Of a stretch of DNA of 38,429 nt, positions 16,186-29,402 are shown one piece after another; the stretch's first letter is position 1, and each line of letters starts with the position of its first letter. The notes beneath the pieces were generated by a model. The model ran no database searches, had not been told where the DNA came from, and saw nothing but the letters and a program-made list of their open reading frames with translations. Both the position numbers and the translations under genes were made by a program. Origin of the DNA: Bacteroidaceae bacterium (GTDB lineage: Bacteria > Bacteroidota > Bacteroidia > Bacteroidales > Bacteroidaceae); contig JABUUA010000018.1 of assembly GCA_021443405.1 (NCBI GenBank), positions 9,564 through 47,992 of the forward strand, read 5' to 3'.

Positions 16186-16848
16186 ATGAACGAACTTGAG
16201 AAGAAAACCATGAGGAGCCAGCAGGCCATACTGGGTTGGCTGGGCATCCTGCTGCCCGTAATGTGTATTGGCTTCGGACTTATCGGCTACTTTCGCGGCG
16301 TGAACGAGCCCGGTTGGTACGAAAGTATCTCGGCTACCTATTATGCCAACTCGCGCATGTGCATGATAGGTCTGCTCTTTGCCTCCGGTATCTACTATTG
16401 GGCGTACCGTGGCTACGACCTGTGGGACTCCATTGTCACGGACGTGGCGGCCGTGATGGCCTTTTGCGTGGTGGCTTTCCCCTGTAGCGACGGACGGGCG
16501 ACGAGCGAGGAACTCGTGGGCATCTTCTGCCTGCCGATTGGCGTTTCGGGCACCATCCACAACATCGTAGCTATTGTGCTCTACGTCACCTTCTTTGTGC
16601 AGACGCTGCGTTTCACGCGCACGGCGGGCGAGATGACGCCGCAAAAGAAGATGCGCAACCGCGTGTATTACTCGTGCGCCGCGCTGATGATTGTCGGGTC
16701 GCTGTTTATTCTCTGCGTCAACGTAGTGCCGGCCTTGGAGGAGTATCACTACCTTGTGCTGGTGGGCGAGTGCTTCTTGCAACTGGCGTTCGGCACGGCG
16801 TGGCTCGTGAAGGGCGAGTGTGTCAAGGCACTGAACGATAAGGAATAA
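16186..16848 (+). CDS. Polytopic membrane protein of unknown function (DUF998-like)
   Basis: ATG at 16186 preceded by its own TATCTTTG (16152-16159); multiple hydrophobic segments; NEPGWYESISATYYANSRMCMIG. Confidence 0.7.
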   Translation: MNELEKKTMRSQQAILGWLGILLPVMCIGFGLIGYFRGVNEPGWYESISATYYANSRMCMIGLLFASGIYYWAYRGYDLWDSIVTDVAAVMAFCVVAFPCSDGRATSEELVGIFCLPIGVSGTIHNIVAIVLYVTFFVQTLRFTRTAGEMTPQKKMRNRVYYSCAALMIVGSLFILCVNVVPALEEYHYLVLVGECFLQLAFGTAWLVKGECVKALNDKE

Positions 16849-16895
16849 ACAAGCCAATCGTCAGTTTCCCTCGTTTCCTCTGGAAGCCGGCGGTA

Positions 16896-17049
16896 AGACA
16901 TACGGACGTCTGCTTCGAAACATAAGGTTGTCTGCGCTCAAACATAAGGATGTTTGGGCCGAAACATAAGGACGCCTTCAATGATTCGTCGGGATGTCTT
17001 CGATGATTCGTCGGGACTTCTGCATCGATTCGACGAAGCACCGAAACGA
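16896..17049. repeat. Seven-unit array with exact 22-nt period (16-nt core + 6-nt linker)
   Basis: Cores at 16896, 16918, 16940, 16962, 16984, 17006, 17028: AGACATACGGACGTCT, AAACATAAGGTTGTCT, AAACATAAGGATGTTT, AAACATAAGGACGCCT, ATTCGTCGGGATGTCT, ATTCGTCGGGACTTCT, ATTCGACGAAGCACCG. Confidence 0.85.
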
Positions 17050-17154
17050 TTTCACCCAGAAACAAATTCCCCGTTCCGCTGCTCTTTGCCTTCATGCCGA
17101 TGAAGGTAAAAACCGGCGGATGCGTGTCGTGGCGCTCGGAAATGCTCGAAATTA

Positions 17155-17186
17155 TTTGGCATTTCCCTTGCTTATTTGTATCTTTG
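17155..17186 (+). promoter_or_regulatory. Promoter TTTG-N20-TATCTTTG for glyS
   Basis: TTTG 17155-17158, TATCTTTG 17179-17186. Confidence 0.7.
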
Positions 17187-17216
17187 CGCCCATATATATA
17201 AATAAGGTATAGAAAA

Positions 17217-18770
17217 ATGGCACAACAAGAAGACGTTTTCAAGAAAATCATCTCGCACTGTAAGGAGTATGGTTTCGTGTTCCCCTCGAGTGATATCTAC
17301 GACGGCTTGGGCGCCGTGTACGACTACGGTCAGAACGGCGTCGAGCTGAAGAACAATATTAAACAGTACTGGTGGCAGAGCATGGTGCTGCTCCACGAGA
17401 ACATCGTGGGCATCGATGCCGCCATCTTCATGCATCCCACCACGTGGAAGGCCAGTGGTCATGTGGATGCCTTCAATGATCCTCTCATCGATAACCGCGA
17501 CTCCAAGAAGCGTTACCGCGCCGACGTGCTCATCGAGGACCAGTTGGCCAAGTACGATGACAAGGTGGAGAAGGAAGTGGAGAAAGCCCGCAAGCGCTTC
17601 AAGGAAAGCTTCGACGAGGTCCAGTACCGCGCCACGTCGCCCAAGGTGCTCGAACTCATCGAGAAGCGTGACGCCTTGCTTGCCCGCTTCCAACAGGCCC
17701 TGAATACCGAGGGAGGCATCGACCTGGACGAACTCAAGCAGATCATCCTCGACGAGGAGATAGTATGTCCCATCAGCGGCACCCGCAACTGGACCGACGT
17801 TCGTCAGTTCAACCTCATGTTCAAGACCGAGATGGGCGCCGCCGCCGAGGGCGCAAGCACCATCTATCTCCGCCCCGAAACGGCCCAGGGAATCTTTGTG
17901 AATTACCTCAACGTGCAGAAGACCGGTCGCATGAAACTGCCCTTCGGTATCGCACAGATTGGTAAAGCCTTCCGCAACGAGATAGTGGCCCGCCAGTTTA
18001 TCTTCCGCATGCGTGAGTTCGAACAAATGGAAATGCAGTTCTTCATCCAGCCGGGCACCGAGTTGGATTGGTTTGCCAAGTGGAAGGAGACCCGCATGGC
18101 TTGGCACCAGGCACTGGGCTTCGGCGCCGAGAACTACCGTTTCCACGACCACGACAAGCTGGCGCACTATGCCAACGCCGCCACGGACATCGAGTTCCAC
18201 ATGCCCTTCGGTTTCAAGGAAGTCGAGGGCATCCACAGCCGCACGAACTTCGACCTCGGTCAGCACGCCAAGTATTCTGGCAAGAAAATCGAGTATTTCG
18301 ACCCCGATCGCAACGAGTCTTACACCCCGTACGTCATTGAGACCTCCATCGGTGTGGACCGTATGTTCCTCTCGGTGATGTGTCATAGCTACGAAGAAGA
18401 GCAGTTGCCCAACGGCGAGACCCGCACCGTGCTGCACCTGCCGGCCGCACTGGCGCCCGTGAAGCTCGCCGTGTTCCCCCTCACCAAAAAGGACGGCATG
18501 CCCGAGAAAGCACAGGAAATCATTCGCGACCTGCGCTTCCACTTCAATTGCAAATACGAGGAGAAGGACCAGATAGGCAAGCGTTACCGCCGCATGGACG
18601 CTATCGGCTGCCCCTATTGCGTGACCGTCGACCAGCAGACGTTGGAGGACGACACCGTGACGCTGCGCGACCGCGACACCATGGAACAGCGTCGCGTGCA
18701 CATCAGCGAACTGCGCGGCATCATCGAGGACAAGGTGAGCATCACCTCGCTGCTGAAGAAACTTCTCTAA
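17217..18770 (+). CDS. glyS: Glycyl-tRNA synthetase (class II, alpha2 type)
   Basis: GFVFPSSDIYDGLGAVYDYGQNGVELKNNIK, RPETAQGIFVNYLNV, IETSIGVDRMFLSV. Confidence 0.97.
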   Translation: MAQQEDVFKKIISHCKEYGFVFPSSDIYDGLGAVYDYGQNGVELKNNIKQYWWQSMVLLHENIVGIDAAIFMHPTTWKASGHVDAFNDPLIDNRDSKKRYRADVLIEDQLAKYDDKVEKEVEKARKRFKESFDEVQYRATSPKVLELIEKRDALLARFQQALNTEGGIDLDELKQIILDEEIVCPISGTRNWTDVRQFNLMFKTEMGAAAEGASTIYLRPETAQGIFVNYLNVQKTGRMKLPFGIAQIGKAFRNEIVARQFIFRMREFEQMEMQFFIQPGTELDWFAKWKETRMAWHQALGFGAENYRFHDHDKLAHYANAATDIEFHMPFGFKEVEGIHSRTNFDLGQHAKYSGKKIEYFDPDRNESYTPYVIETSIGVDRMFLSVMCHSYEEEQLPNGETRTVLHLPAALAPVKLAVFPLTKKDGMPEKAQEIIRDLRFHFNCKYEEKDQIGKRYRRMDAIGCPYCVTVDQQTLEDDTVTLRDRDTMEQRRVHISELRGIIEDKVSITSLLKKLL

Positions 18771-20746: not shown

Positions 20747-20864
20747 CCGTCGATGTCGGGATGATTCGGCTCGCGTTTCTGTAGGTCTCAAGATTGTTGC
20801 TGTTCAAAACGGACCTCAGCGTAAGCTTCTGCCAAGCCCTTTTCCGCGACGTCTCTATGCAAAA

Positions 20865-20947
20865 ATGGGGAAAATGTGAAACTTTCTATTGGTTTTAATG
20901 GAGAAAATGTGAAATTGTGTCCTGTTACTAATGCGGATAATGTGAAA
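20865..20947 (+). repeat. Three 17-nt direct repeats at exact 33-nt spacing upstream of ATPase gene
   Basis: ATGGGGAAAATGTGAAA (20865), ATGGAGAAAATGTGAAA (20898), ATGCGGATAATGTGAAA (20931). Confidence 0.9.
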
Positions 20948-23697: not shown

Positions 23698-23785
23698 AGA
23701 CATGCGGACGAATGGACTCAGACGATAGGTCGAATGAGGTCAGACAATAGGTCGTCTTGGCTCAGTCGACCTATTGTCTAATTAC
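23698..23785. repeat. Four-unit 22-nt array
   Basis: Cores AGACATGCGGACGAAT (23698), AGACGATAGGTCGAAT (23720), AGACAATAGGTCGTCT (23742), AGTCGACCTATTGTCT (23764, inverted copy). Confidence 0.85.
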
Positions 23786-23840: not shown

Positions 23841-24989
23841 TTACAGAAGTTTCTTGATTTCTTGTTCCACGTCGCCCATCAGCTCCATGCGGCCCACGAG
23901 ATTGTTGCCGCGGTCGATGAGGAACCATGTGGGCACCTGCTGGAGATTGTATATCTGCACGATGTCGTTCGCCATTCCCTCGCGATTCCACACGGTGATC
24001 CAGGGCAGATTATGCGCCAGCGTCTTCCACTGATGCTCGTCTGGGTCGAGCGACACCTGGTAGATTTCCAGTCCTTGTGCGTGGTATTTGTTGTAAAGTT
24101 CGCGTAGCGCGATGGTGCGTTCCTGGCTGCCTTTGAGCGAGAGTGCGGTGAAGTCGAGCATCACCACACTGCCTTTCAGTTCGCTCAGGCGGCGCTCCTG
24201 TCCCGAAATATCGGGGAAGCCCATGTCGATGATGCCGGTCTCCTGCACCTTCTCGTCGTCGAGGTTGATGGAGAGTCCGCGTTGCCGCGTGTTTTTATGT
24301 CCCTGCATGGCGATGTTGCACAGGTTCTGCGTGCGCAGACTGCCGGGATATCGCTCGAGCCAAGCGTTGGCGATGGCCGTGAACCACGTTACATCCTTCG
24401 CGTCCGCCACGGGGTCGAAGAGCAGACGTCCAGCCAGCACTTGGAACAGCGCGTAATACGACGACGGAAGGTGGTAGAAGTTCTGCACGAAATTTATCTT
24501 CACGTCGGTCTTGTAGTCGGCGATAAGTGCTTGGATGGCCGCGTCGCGCTCCTCCAGCGTGCGGGTGCGGTCGTCCACGGTACGGCGGATGGCGCGCGTC
24601 AGCGTGTCGAGTTTGAGGGTGAGCATGCGGATGGTGTCGCAACTTCCACTGCCCTCCACGGTGTAGCCGACCGCCATCTTCGGCAGCGACGCCCGCACGG
24701 TGATGGTCTCGGTACTGTCCACGGAGAGGTTGACAATCTGTTCGCCGATGCGAAGCCTGTAGAATTCCGGGTTTCCTATCGTGTCGCCTGCGAAGTCGAA
24801 TCGGCCCTCGGCGTCCAATTTCACGGAGTCGATGGCCACGGGTCCGTGGTCAACGGTCATGTGTTCCAAGTAAAGCGTGGTGTCGTCGGCCTCGGTAATC
24901 TGGCCGACGATATGGAATTTGCCGCCTTCTTGCTTGCAGGCGACCAGAGTGAGCAGCGCCAAAGCTGCCAATGCTATCCGTTTCTTCAT
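23841..24989 (-). CDS. TlpA/thioredoxin-fold lipoprotein with DUF4369-like N-terminus; CXXC motif absent
   Basis: Start at [22 protein letters not shown] (lipobox); the longer upstream ORF (to 25529) is antisense to pnp. Thioredoxin-like C-terminus ([27 protein letters not shown]). Confidence 0.85.
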
Positions 24990-25131
24990 AGTGATTGCAA
25001 AGGTAGCAATTATTCGATGGAAATCAAAGCCAAAGTCCGATTTATTTGTGTCCGCAGTCCCTCGTCGGCATGTCTTGCCCGCCGCAAAACGATGTATCGG
25101 GCAGCGTGTTTGGCGGATAATCGGCATTTTG

Positions 25132-25163
25132 TTTGGCGTCTCCGCCTTTTTTTCGTATCTTTG
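25132..25163 (+). promoter_or_regulatory. Promoter TTTG-N20-TATCTTTG for pnp
   Basis: TTTG 25132-25135 and TATCTTTG 25156-25163. Confidence 0.7.
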
Positions 25164-25205
25164 TGCGCATTTTATGCGATATACATTATTTATTATTTTA
25201 TACAG

Positions 25206-27479
25206 ATGAACGTAATTACAAAGAAAGTCGAGTTGCCTGATGGAAGAACCATCAGCATCGAGACCGGGAAATTGGCCAAGCAGGCCGACGGCTCCGTGAT
25301 GTTGCGTATGAACAACACCATGCTGCTCGCCACTGTTTGTGCCGCCAAAGATGCCGTTCCCGGTACAGATTTCATGCCCTTGCAGGTAGAGTATCGCGAG
25401 AAGTACAGCGCCGCTGGTCGCTTCCCTGGTGGTTTCACCAAGCGCGAGGGTAAGGCGAATGACGACGAAATCCTGACCTGTCGTCTGGTGGACCGCGCCC
25501 TGCGTCCCCTTTTCCCCAGCAACTATCACGCTGAGGTCTATGTCAATGTTATCTTGTTCTCAGCCGACGGCGTGGACATGCCCGATGCCTTGGCAGGTTT
25601 TGCTGCCAGCGCAGCACTGTCGGTGAGCGATATACCTTGGGAAGGTCCCATCAGTGAGGTGCGCGTAGCCCGCATCGATGGTGCCTACGTGATTAACCCC
25701 ACGTTCGAGCAACTCAAGCAGGCCGATATGGACCTGATGGTGGGTGCCACCGAGGAAAACATCATGATGGTGGAAGGTGAGATGGACGAGGTGAGCGAGC
25801 AAGACCTGCTCGGCGCCCTGAAAGCCGCCCACGACGCCATCAAGCCCATGTGCCGTCTGCAGAAGGAACTGGCCAAGGAACTGGGCAAAGACGTGAAGCG
25901 CGAGTATTGTCACGAAATCAATGACGAGGCGCTGCAGGCTCAGGTCAAGGACGAGTGCTATCAGCCCGCCTACGACGTGACCAAGCAGGCGCTGGAGAAG
26001 CACGCCCGTGCCGCTGCCTTCGAGCAGATTCGCGAGGACTTCAAGGTACGCTACGCCGAGGCGCATGCCGACATGACTCCCGAGGAACTCGAGGAGAAGA
26101 ACGGTTTGATTGACCGCTACTACCACGACGTGGAGAAGGACGCCATGCGTCGCTGCATCCTCGACGAGGGCACGCGTCTCGACGGTCGTAAGACGGACGA
26201 GATTCGTCCCATCTGGTGTGAGGTGGATCCTCTGCCCGGTCCTCACGGCTCGGCTATCTTCACCCGCGGTGAGACGCAGTCGCTGAGCACCACCACCCTC
26301 GGTACAAAGATGGACGAGAAACTGGTGGACGACGTGCTCGACAAGAGCTACCAGCGCTTCCTGCTTCACTACAACTTCCCCCCCTTCTCTACGGGTGAGG
26401 CCAAGGCTCAGCGCGGTGTAGGCCGTCGCGAGATTGGTCACGGCCATCTGGCTTGGCGCGGTCTGAAGGGTCAGATTCCCGCCGACTATCCCTACACCGT
26501 GCGTGTGGTGAGCGACATCCTCGAGAGCAACGGCTCAAGTTCTATGGCCACCGTTTGCGCGGGATGCCTGAGCTTGATGGATGCCGGCGTTCCCTTGAAG
26601 AGCCCCGTCAGCGGTATCGCCATGGGTCTTATCAAGAATCCCGGCGAAGACAAGTACGCAGTGCTGAGCGATATTCTCGGCGACGAGGACCACTTGGGCG
26701 ATATGGACTTCAAGACCACCGGTACGCCCAAGGGCTTGACCGCTACTCAGATGGACATCAAGTGCGACGGTCTGTCGTACGAAATACTGGAGAAGGCGCT
26801 GATGCAGGCTAAGGCCGGTCGTGAGCACATCCTTGGAGAGATGCTGAAGACTCTGGGCGCTCCGCGTCCCGAGCTCAAGCCCCATGTTCCTCGCATCGAG
26901 CAGATGATTATCCCGAAAGAGTTCATCGGTGCTGTGATTGGCCCCGGCGGTAAGATTATCCAGGGCATGCAGGAGGAGACGGGTGCAGTCATCACCATCG
27001 ACGAGGAAGACGGCGTAGGCAAGATTCAGGTGAGCGGTAGCAACAAAGACGTCATCGACGCTGCCATCGCGAAGATTAAAGCCATCGTGGCCGTGCCCGA
27101 GATTGGCGAAATCTACGAGGGTCCTGTGAAGAACATCCAGCCTTTCGGTTGCTTCGTTGAGTTTATGCCTGGCAAGGATGGTCTGGTTCACATCAGTGAA
27201 ATCGACTGGAAGCGCCTCGAGACCGTCGAGGAGGCTGGCATCAAGGAAGGCGACATCATGCGCGTGAAACTCCTTGACATCGACCCCAAGACCGGTAAGT
27301 TCAAGCTCTCACGCCGTGTGCTGATTGAGAAGCCCGAAGGTTATGTGGAGCGTGAGCGCCGTCCGCGCCCCGAGCGTGGTGAGCGTCGTCCTCGTCCCGA
27401 GCGCGGTGAACGTCGCGAGCGTGGCGAGTTCCGTCCCCGTCCCGAACAGGACAACAATGAGACGCCCGCTGCCGAGTAA
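25206..27479 (+). CDS. pnp: Polyribonucleotide nucleotidyltransferase
   Basis: [33 protein letters not shown] domain [24 protein letters not shown]1 domain; Arg-rich tail. Longer ORF start at 24282 rejected. Confidence 0.97.
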
Positions 27480-29314: not shown

Positions 29315-29402
29315 AGACATGCGGACGAGTGACGTCACACGTCCTTATGTGTGAGGCGAGACGTCCTTATGTGTTGGCCCACACGTCCGCATGTCTTTTT
29401 TT
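29315..29402. repeat. Four-unit 22-nt array
   Basis: Cores AGACATGCGGACGAGT (29315), ACACGTCCTTATGTGT (29337), AGACGTCCTTATGTGT (29359), ACACGTCCGCATGTCT (29381). Confidence 0.85.

Follow-up and report, generated by a model that had tools for sequence, protein, structure and literature searches.

A 22-nt phased array of dyad sites upstream of glyS and its relatives across a Bacteroidaceae genus

A glycyl-tRNA synthetase gene (glyS) in a draft Bacteroidaceae genome is preceded by a run of short palindrome-like words repeated every 22 nt, which raises the question of what such a strictly spaced array is and whether it concerns glyS at all. The array lies in a window of 38,429 nucleotides (contig JABUUA010000018.1, positions 9,564 to 47,992), and all positions given without a locus name are counted from the first nucleotide of this window. 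A previous sequence-only reading described seven cores at an exact 22-nt period with no phase slip, and proposed that selection maintains dyads or small hairpins rather than one sequence.

The array upstream of glyS

Array 1 (16896-17049, no strand assigned) consists of seven 22-nt units, each made of a 16-nt dyad core and a 6-nt linker. The cores start at 16896, 16918, 16940, 16962, 16984, 17006, and 17028 and keep their register throughout (AGACATACGGACGTCT, AAACATAAGGTTGTCT, AAACATAAGGATGTTT, AAACATAAGGACGCCT, ATTCGTCGGGATGTCT, ATTCGTCGGGACTTCT, and ATTCGACGAAGCACCG). In the 368-nt intergenic region that contains them, 62 of 88 positions are identical at lag 22 in the best 88-nt window, and the second-best lag between 10 and 40 is 20, with 39 matches. 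The best score at any of these lags in 1,000 dinucleotide shuffles averaged 35.6 and never exceeded 47. The exact period is therefore confirmed, and shuffled sequence never reaches comparable phasing. Tandem Repeats Finder (TRF) gives the same period, 22, for two rows that overlap (16898-16972 and 16970-17032).

Units 1 to 4 (16896-16977, forward strand) are full members of a word family found genome-wide (ACATAC.GGACGT, ACATAA.GGTTGT, ACATAA.GGATGT, and ACATAA.GGACGC). Units 5 to 7 (16984-17049, forward strand) have a degenerate left half (ATTCGTCGGG..) at an unchanged period: units 5 and 6 retain the right half alone (GGGATGTCT and GGGACTTCT), and unit 7 is a weak family match. The complementary core ends that had been thought to change together do so in units 1 and 3, and in none of the other units.

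Related arrays in the same genome

The window contains two further arrays, neither with an assigned strand. Array 2 (23698-23779), between greA and the next gene, has four units at 22-nt spacing (ACATGC.GGACGA, ACGATA.GGTCGA, ACAATA.GGTCGT, and TCGACC.TATTGT). Array 3 (29315-29396), upstream of a herA-like gene, also has four (ACATGC.GGACGA, two of ACGTCC.TTATGT, and ACGTCC.GCATGT), and its ACATGC half-sites face outward at both ends. The genome, a draft of 2.63 Mb in 226 contigs that is about 83% complete and probably metagenome-derived, has 166 matches to the phased core pair ACRWNNNNWYGT-N10-ACRWNNNNWYGT and none to the reversed pattern. Extrapolating from 17 chains in a 390-kb sample, the whole genome may hold about 110 arrays, i.e., roughly a hundred. 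Isolated units are nearly absent: at a position weight matrix score of 14, 71 units lie in phased chains and 2 stand alone (0 in the reversed-sequence control). The chains have 2 to 6 exact units, most commonly 4. Their outermost half-sites are enriched in the ..GC form (18/64 vs 15/188, p = 0.0001), a hint that arrays have defined ends.

The arrays are mostly intergenic. With gene contexts that are approximate, being based on a simple longest-ORF method, they are over-represented in convergent gaps (9 of 14 array gaps vs 15 of 82 array-free gaps; Fisher p = 0.0009) and under-represented in divergent ones (p = 0.013). Spurious ORFs are called over some arrays. Other repeats are present as well. 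A second dyad word of this genome, TTTCTWAGAAA, is found as pairs with a spacing of 44 or 21 nt, at or near multiples of the array period (L062:14003/14047, L068:16380/16424, and L076:3109/3130). The window also has a 33-nt tandem repeat of 2.5 copies between nucleotidyltransferase and DUF4143 ATPase genes (20864-20947), and a 27/45-nt tandem repeat rich in Arg, Pro, and Glu codons in the 3' part of an ORF at 24282-27479 (27352-27445).

Conservation of the spacing in relatives

Irrespective of sequence, we scored tandem identity in intergenic DNA for every lag between 12 and 60. This blind scan found 11 arrays at lag 22 in the genome itself, 9 at lag 44, 1 at lag 21, and none elsewhere. Stretches from 20 genomes of the same genus gave 26 arrays at lag 22, 15 at lag 44, and no more than 4 at each remaining lag; in other families of the order there was a single array at lag 22. 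The words differ from species to species (e.g., AAGACGCGCGTCTT, ACTCCCCTAGGCGAGT, and CGAACCATGGTTCA). As a control for the 26 same-genus arrays we permuted their columns, which removes symmetry but leaves tandem identity intact. Against this control the dyad is significant in 16 of the arrays (p ≤ 0.05) and undetectable in 6 (p > 0.2), with a Fisher combined p of about 1e-15. Between adjacent units of the same-genus arrays, the 16-nt core is better conserved than the 6-nt linker by 0.137, a difference that none of 200 permutations reached (mean 0.027, sd 0.029); in one array (L217) the identities are 0.86 and 0.20, respectively. Because the dyad and the stronger conservation of the core hold across same-genus arrays, including those with other words, the division of 22 nt into a 16-nt dyad and a 6-nt linker characterises the genus rather than a single sequence. 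The arrays are thus present across this genome and its relatives, and what recurs is, as had been proposed, a fixed period with a dyad core.

A taxonomic scan with a four-core pattern, using one genome per species, listed mainly metagenome-assembled genomes of Bacteroidales; the isolates among the matches listed are Phocaeicola barnesiae DSM 18169, three species of Carboxylicivirga, and Hallella mizrahii. Pairs following the core grammar ACRWNNNNWYGT number 92 in P. barnesiae (control 0) and 187 in another array-rich genome, G342 (control 1). In Carboxylicivirga the signal is weak and near control level (3-10 pairs, controls 1-7). Of 60 genomes in the genus of P. barnesiae, 19 contain matches to a stricter pattern, all controls being zero; one of the 19, G352, uses the commonest word of our genome, AAACATAAGGACGTTT. 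Phage carriage was considered and provisionally set aside; only 8 stretches of a viral collection match a four-core pattern. Five Lactobacillaceae contigs (L104, L142, L162, L164, and L170) have near-identical 22-nt direct repeats that fit the same degenerate pattern, and which we take to be probably plasmid iterons. A genome from another family of the order (G296) has 128 matches to the reversed control pattern, reflecting a different abundant repeat with 22-nt spacing.

Dispersal and probable copying

Arrays at separate loci of the genome are about 87-90% alike over more than 80 nt, and their flanks are unrelated, the only shared item being a different short repeat. A gene for a UPF1-type helicase (PF13086/PF13087) contains one array in frame; the loop that it occupies is shorter in several homologues from the same genus. 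The insertions in this loop differ by species among the homologues (L354-L373), that of our genome being the 22-nt array; three others have GC-rich inverted repeats there (G003, G018, and G019), with an in-frame TAG in G018. In G342, the arrays are embedded in a dispersed non-coding repeat of about 500-750 bp, most copies of which are 75-87% identical. One copy of this carrier repeat (L326:7400-7530) has a second 22-nt array, with dyad word AACAAGCCGGGCTTGTACGGCG, adjoining an ACRW-type array. The present-day similarity of arrays suggests that they have been copied between loci. No recent insertion, target-site duplication, or precise empty site was seen among the loci compared.

Proposed phased binding sites versus slippage

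The reading that we favour, with a confidence that is evenly balanced, is that of a dispersed mobile non-coding repeat, similar to BrickBuilt and REP elements, composed of phased dyad sites that are probably bound by a putative dimeric protein. Its most serious competitor, which we regard as rather unlikely, is a purely mutational minisatellite: slippage or template switching at short palindromes would both create and homogenise the 22-nt units, with neither binding factor nor function. This would suit the species-specific words, the mostly intergenic locations, the homogenisation of some loci (L302, for instance, has five nearly identical units), and the fact that the position at glyS is not conserved. 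Yet slippage would copy the linkers too, and these diverge while cores and spacing stay, L217 being the clearest example. The period also stays at 22 when the palindrome is longer or shorter, identical words are scattered across many loci, and the core grammar recurs in other genera.

Covariation and folding

If the dyads were maintained as hairpins, as had been suggested from the ends of several cores, paired positions should change together. In 126 units of the genome, no positive covariation is seen at the symmetric flanking positions (z between -0.3 and -1.5). Among core pairs, 9/14 covaries positively (z = 4.0), and complementarity at 8/15, 10/13, and 11/12 is below that of shuffled pairs (z = -3.6, -7.2, and -7.6). 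The size of this negative covariation is uncertain, since one favoured word was used to collect part of the units. For the 83 units of P. barnesiae, positive covariation of core pairs stays within z = 1.4, with values of 2.0 and 2.7 at two pairs centred on the linker. Folding is far stronger in the arrays than in their dinucleotide shuffles (mean z about -3.5 in our genome and -5 in the genus), but pseudo-arrays assembled from the units of other arrays fold slightly better than the real ones (mean z = +0.68). Covariation and hairpin selection were therefore rejected, on the lack of covariation at the ends, the anti-correlated centre pairs, and the folding of unit-swapped arrays, which real arrays do not surpass. 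This pattern of covariation and folding suggests that the half-sites are recognised independently, as a dimeric DNA-binding protein would impose.

The same data bear on the possibility that the arrays are transcribed RNA elements acting as 3' hairpins, i.e., terminators or mRNA stabilisers. The strong folding relative to dinucleotide shuffles, the bias towards convergent and against divergent gaps in our genome, and the A-runs and T-runs that flank some P. barnesiae arrays speak for it. We nevertheless judge it improbable, given the covariation results and the folding of unit-shuffled arrays. Furthermore, of 11 arrays in tandem gene contexts only 5 fold better on the sense strand, the orientation of P. 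barnesiae arrays is unbiased (13 tandem, 7 convergent, 7 divergent), and distinct terminator-like hairpins stand beside some arrays of our genome. Intrinsic termination by array 1 itself was rejected because the search for a G+C-rich stem-loop followed by a T-run gave 0 sites in 16800-17250, and a known RNA family was rejected because Rfam, at gathering score, matched only tRNAs in the window and the array loci.

Comparison with known repeats

The closest published element is BrickBuilt, a minisatellite/MITE reported from one species, Porphyromonas gingivalis, with 19 intergenic copies (PMC4596501). Like the arrays, it is found in Bacteroidales as tandem imperfect units of about 23 nt scattered in the genome (PMC4596501). 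Leader and tail repeats with inverted ends enclose its array (PMC4596501); the carrier repeat of G342 may be comparable, and the arrays of our own genome share no flanks. The BrickBuilt unit is 23 nt long with consensus AGAYCATARTATCCTCTCRTRTG (PMC4596501), whereas our arrays have 22-nt units without that consensus. We rejected identity by sequence: the unit has 0 matches in the window with 3 mismatches allowed, a shortened 20-nt consensus has 0 in 395 loci, and the consensus shows no significant dyad, while in our arrays dyad and period are constant and the word changes by species.

REP, BIME, and REPIN elements (GTAG) form stem-loops that bear a fixed tag and occur singly or as dimers, and CGTC-tagged REPs, with no dedicated transposase, form clusters in Neisseria and Wolbachia (PMC3733652). 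REPs resemble the arrays in being short dispersed palindromic repeats, mainly intergenic and sometimes within genes (PMC3733652), but our units occur in 22-nt phased chains with no tag shared across species. A REP/REPIN family mobilised by a RAYT (Y1 HUH) transposase would fit palindromic intergenic repeats with paired units and species-specific sequences, and is nonetheless very improbable. Matches to Y1_Tnp (PF01797) were found in control genomes and in none of G333, G342, G352, G016, G018, and our genome (for which, at 83% completeness, the absence is not absolute); most of the array-rich genomes covered have no RAYT gene. This, together with the 71 chained against 2 isolated units and the absence of the GTAG tag, led us to reject it. 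As to the CGTC tag, ACGTC is present in many units of our genome and absent from the words of relatives (CGAACCATGGTTCA and ACTCCCCTAGGCGAGT).

Other known systems are more distant. PINSR, a lineage-specific, dispersed intergenic repeat of 188 bp in Prevotella intermedia, is likewise a non-coding Bacteroidales element without terminal inverted repeats, but it is a single repeat for which the accessible part of the source reports no 22-nt phased dyads (PMC4755523). Plasmid iterons and cooperative operator arrays share with our arrays sites at about 22 bp on one helical face; iterons, however, are directly repeated at a single origin next to a rep gene, as opposed to about a hundred dispersed arrays. 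A CRISPR array (repeats of 23-50 nt, unique spacers of about 30 nt) is inconsistent with 16-nt cores and 6-nt linkers at some hundred loci. Outside the BrickBuilt and REP queries, we found no description of these arrays in the literature, most subscription journals being beyond the scope of the search. The repeat is best read as belonging to the BrickBuilt/REP class and as distinct in its constant 22-bp phase and dyad with a replaceable word.

The neighbourhood of glyS

The gene glyS (17217-18770, forward strand), encoding a class II glycyl-tRNA synthetase, is merely a neighbour of array 1. An exact match to a Bacteroidetes-type promoter, TTTG-N20-TATCTTTG (17155-17186, forward strand), begins 106 bp downstream of the array, which is therefore outside the glyS leader. 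On the other side, the array starts 47 nt past the stop codon of a DUF998-like gene (16192-16848, forward strand; match under the curated cut-off). Same-genus relatives whose glyS start could be read have no array there, about half of the loci being in an unreadable orientation. In spite of the array's place just upstream of the promoter, a glyS-specific operator array is scarcely credible and was rejected, since these relatives lack it and the same repeat family adjoins unrelated genes. The association is accidental, and the array has no specific regulatory role at glyS.

A model for the arrays and its implications

In the favoured reading of phased, protein-bound dyads, the unit is a dyad site of 16 bp followed by a free linker of 6 bp. 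Consecutive dyads thus lie exactly two helical turns apart, on the same face of DNA. Each dyad may be bound by a DNA-binding factor, dimeric or polymerising, which we infer rather than have found. This putative factor would read the two half-sites (here TCAvACRWnM) independently, and half-sites that vary independently while the motif is kept fit recognition by a protein. It would bind neighbouring dyads cooperatively; the near-confinement of units to phased chains fits cooperative or array-level action. The arrays would spread by copying, as MITEs and REPs do, and the same factor may mobilise or tolerate them. Against binding, words that differ radically within one genus require a fast-evolving specificity, and 6 of the 26 relatives' arrays have no detectable dyad; against mobility, the length of the helicase loop varies in several species. 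A broader proposal, that a machinery of Bacteroidales recognises or generates 22-bp-spaced dyads largely irrespective of sequence, with about a hundred arrays of its own word in each species, is in our view doubtful.

Such arrays are likely to trouble assembly and annotation. Since an array-rich isolate exists (P. barnesiae DSM 18169), the question they raise is open to bench experiments. Sequence is what defines most bacterial repeat families, whereas here spacing and symmetry are kept across species and the sequence is replaced wholesale. This retention points to one of two things: a fast-evolving DNA-binding or mobilising factor whose sites co-evolve with it, or a process by which length and symmetry are measured.
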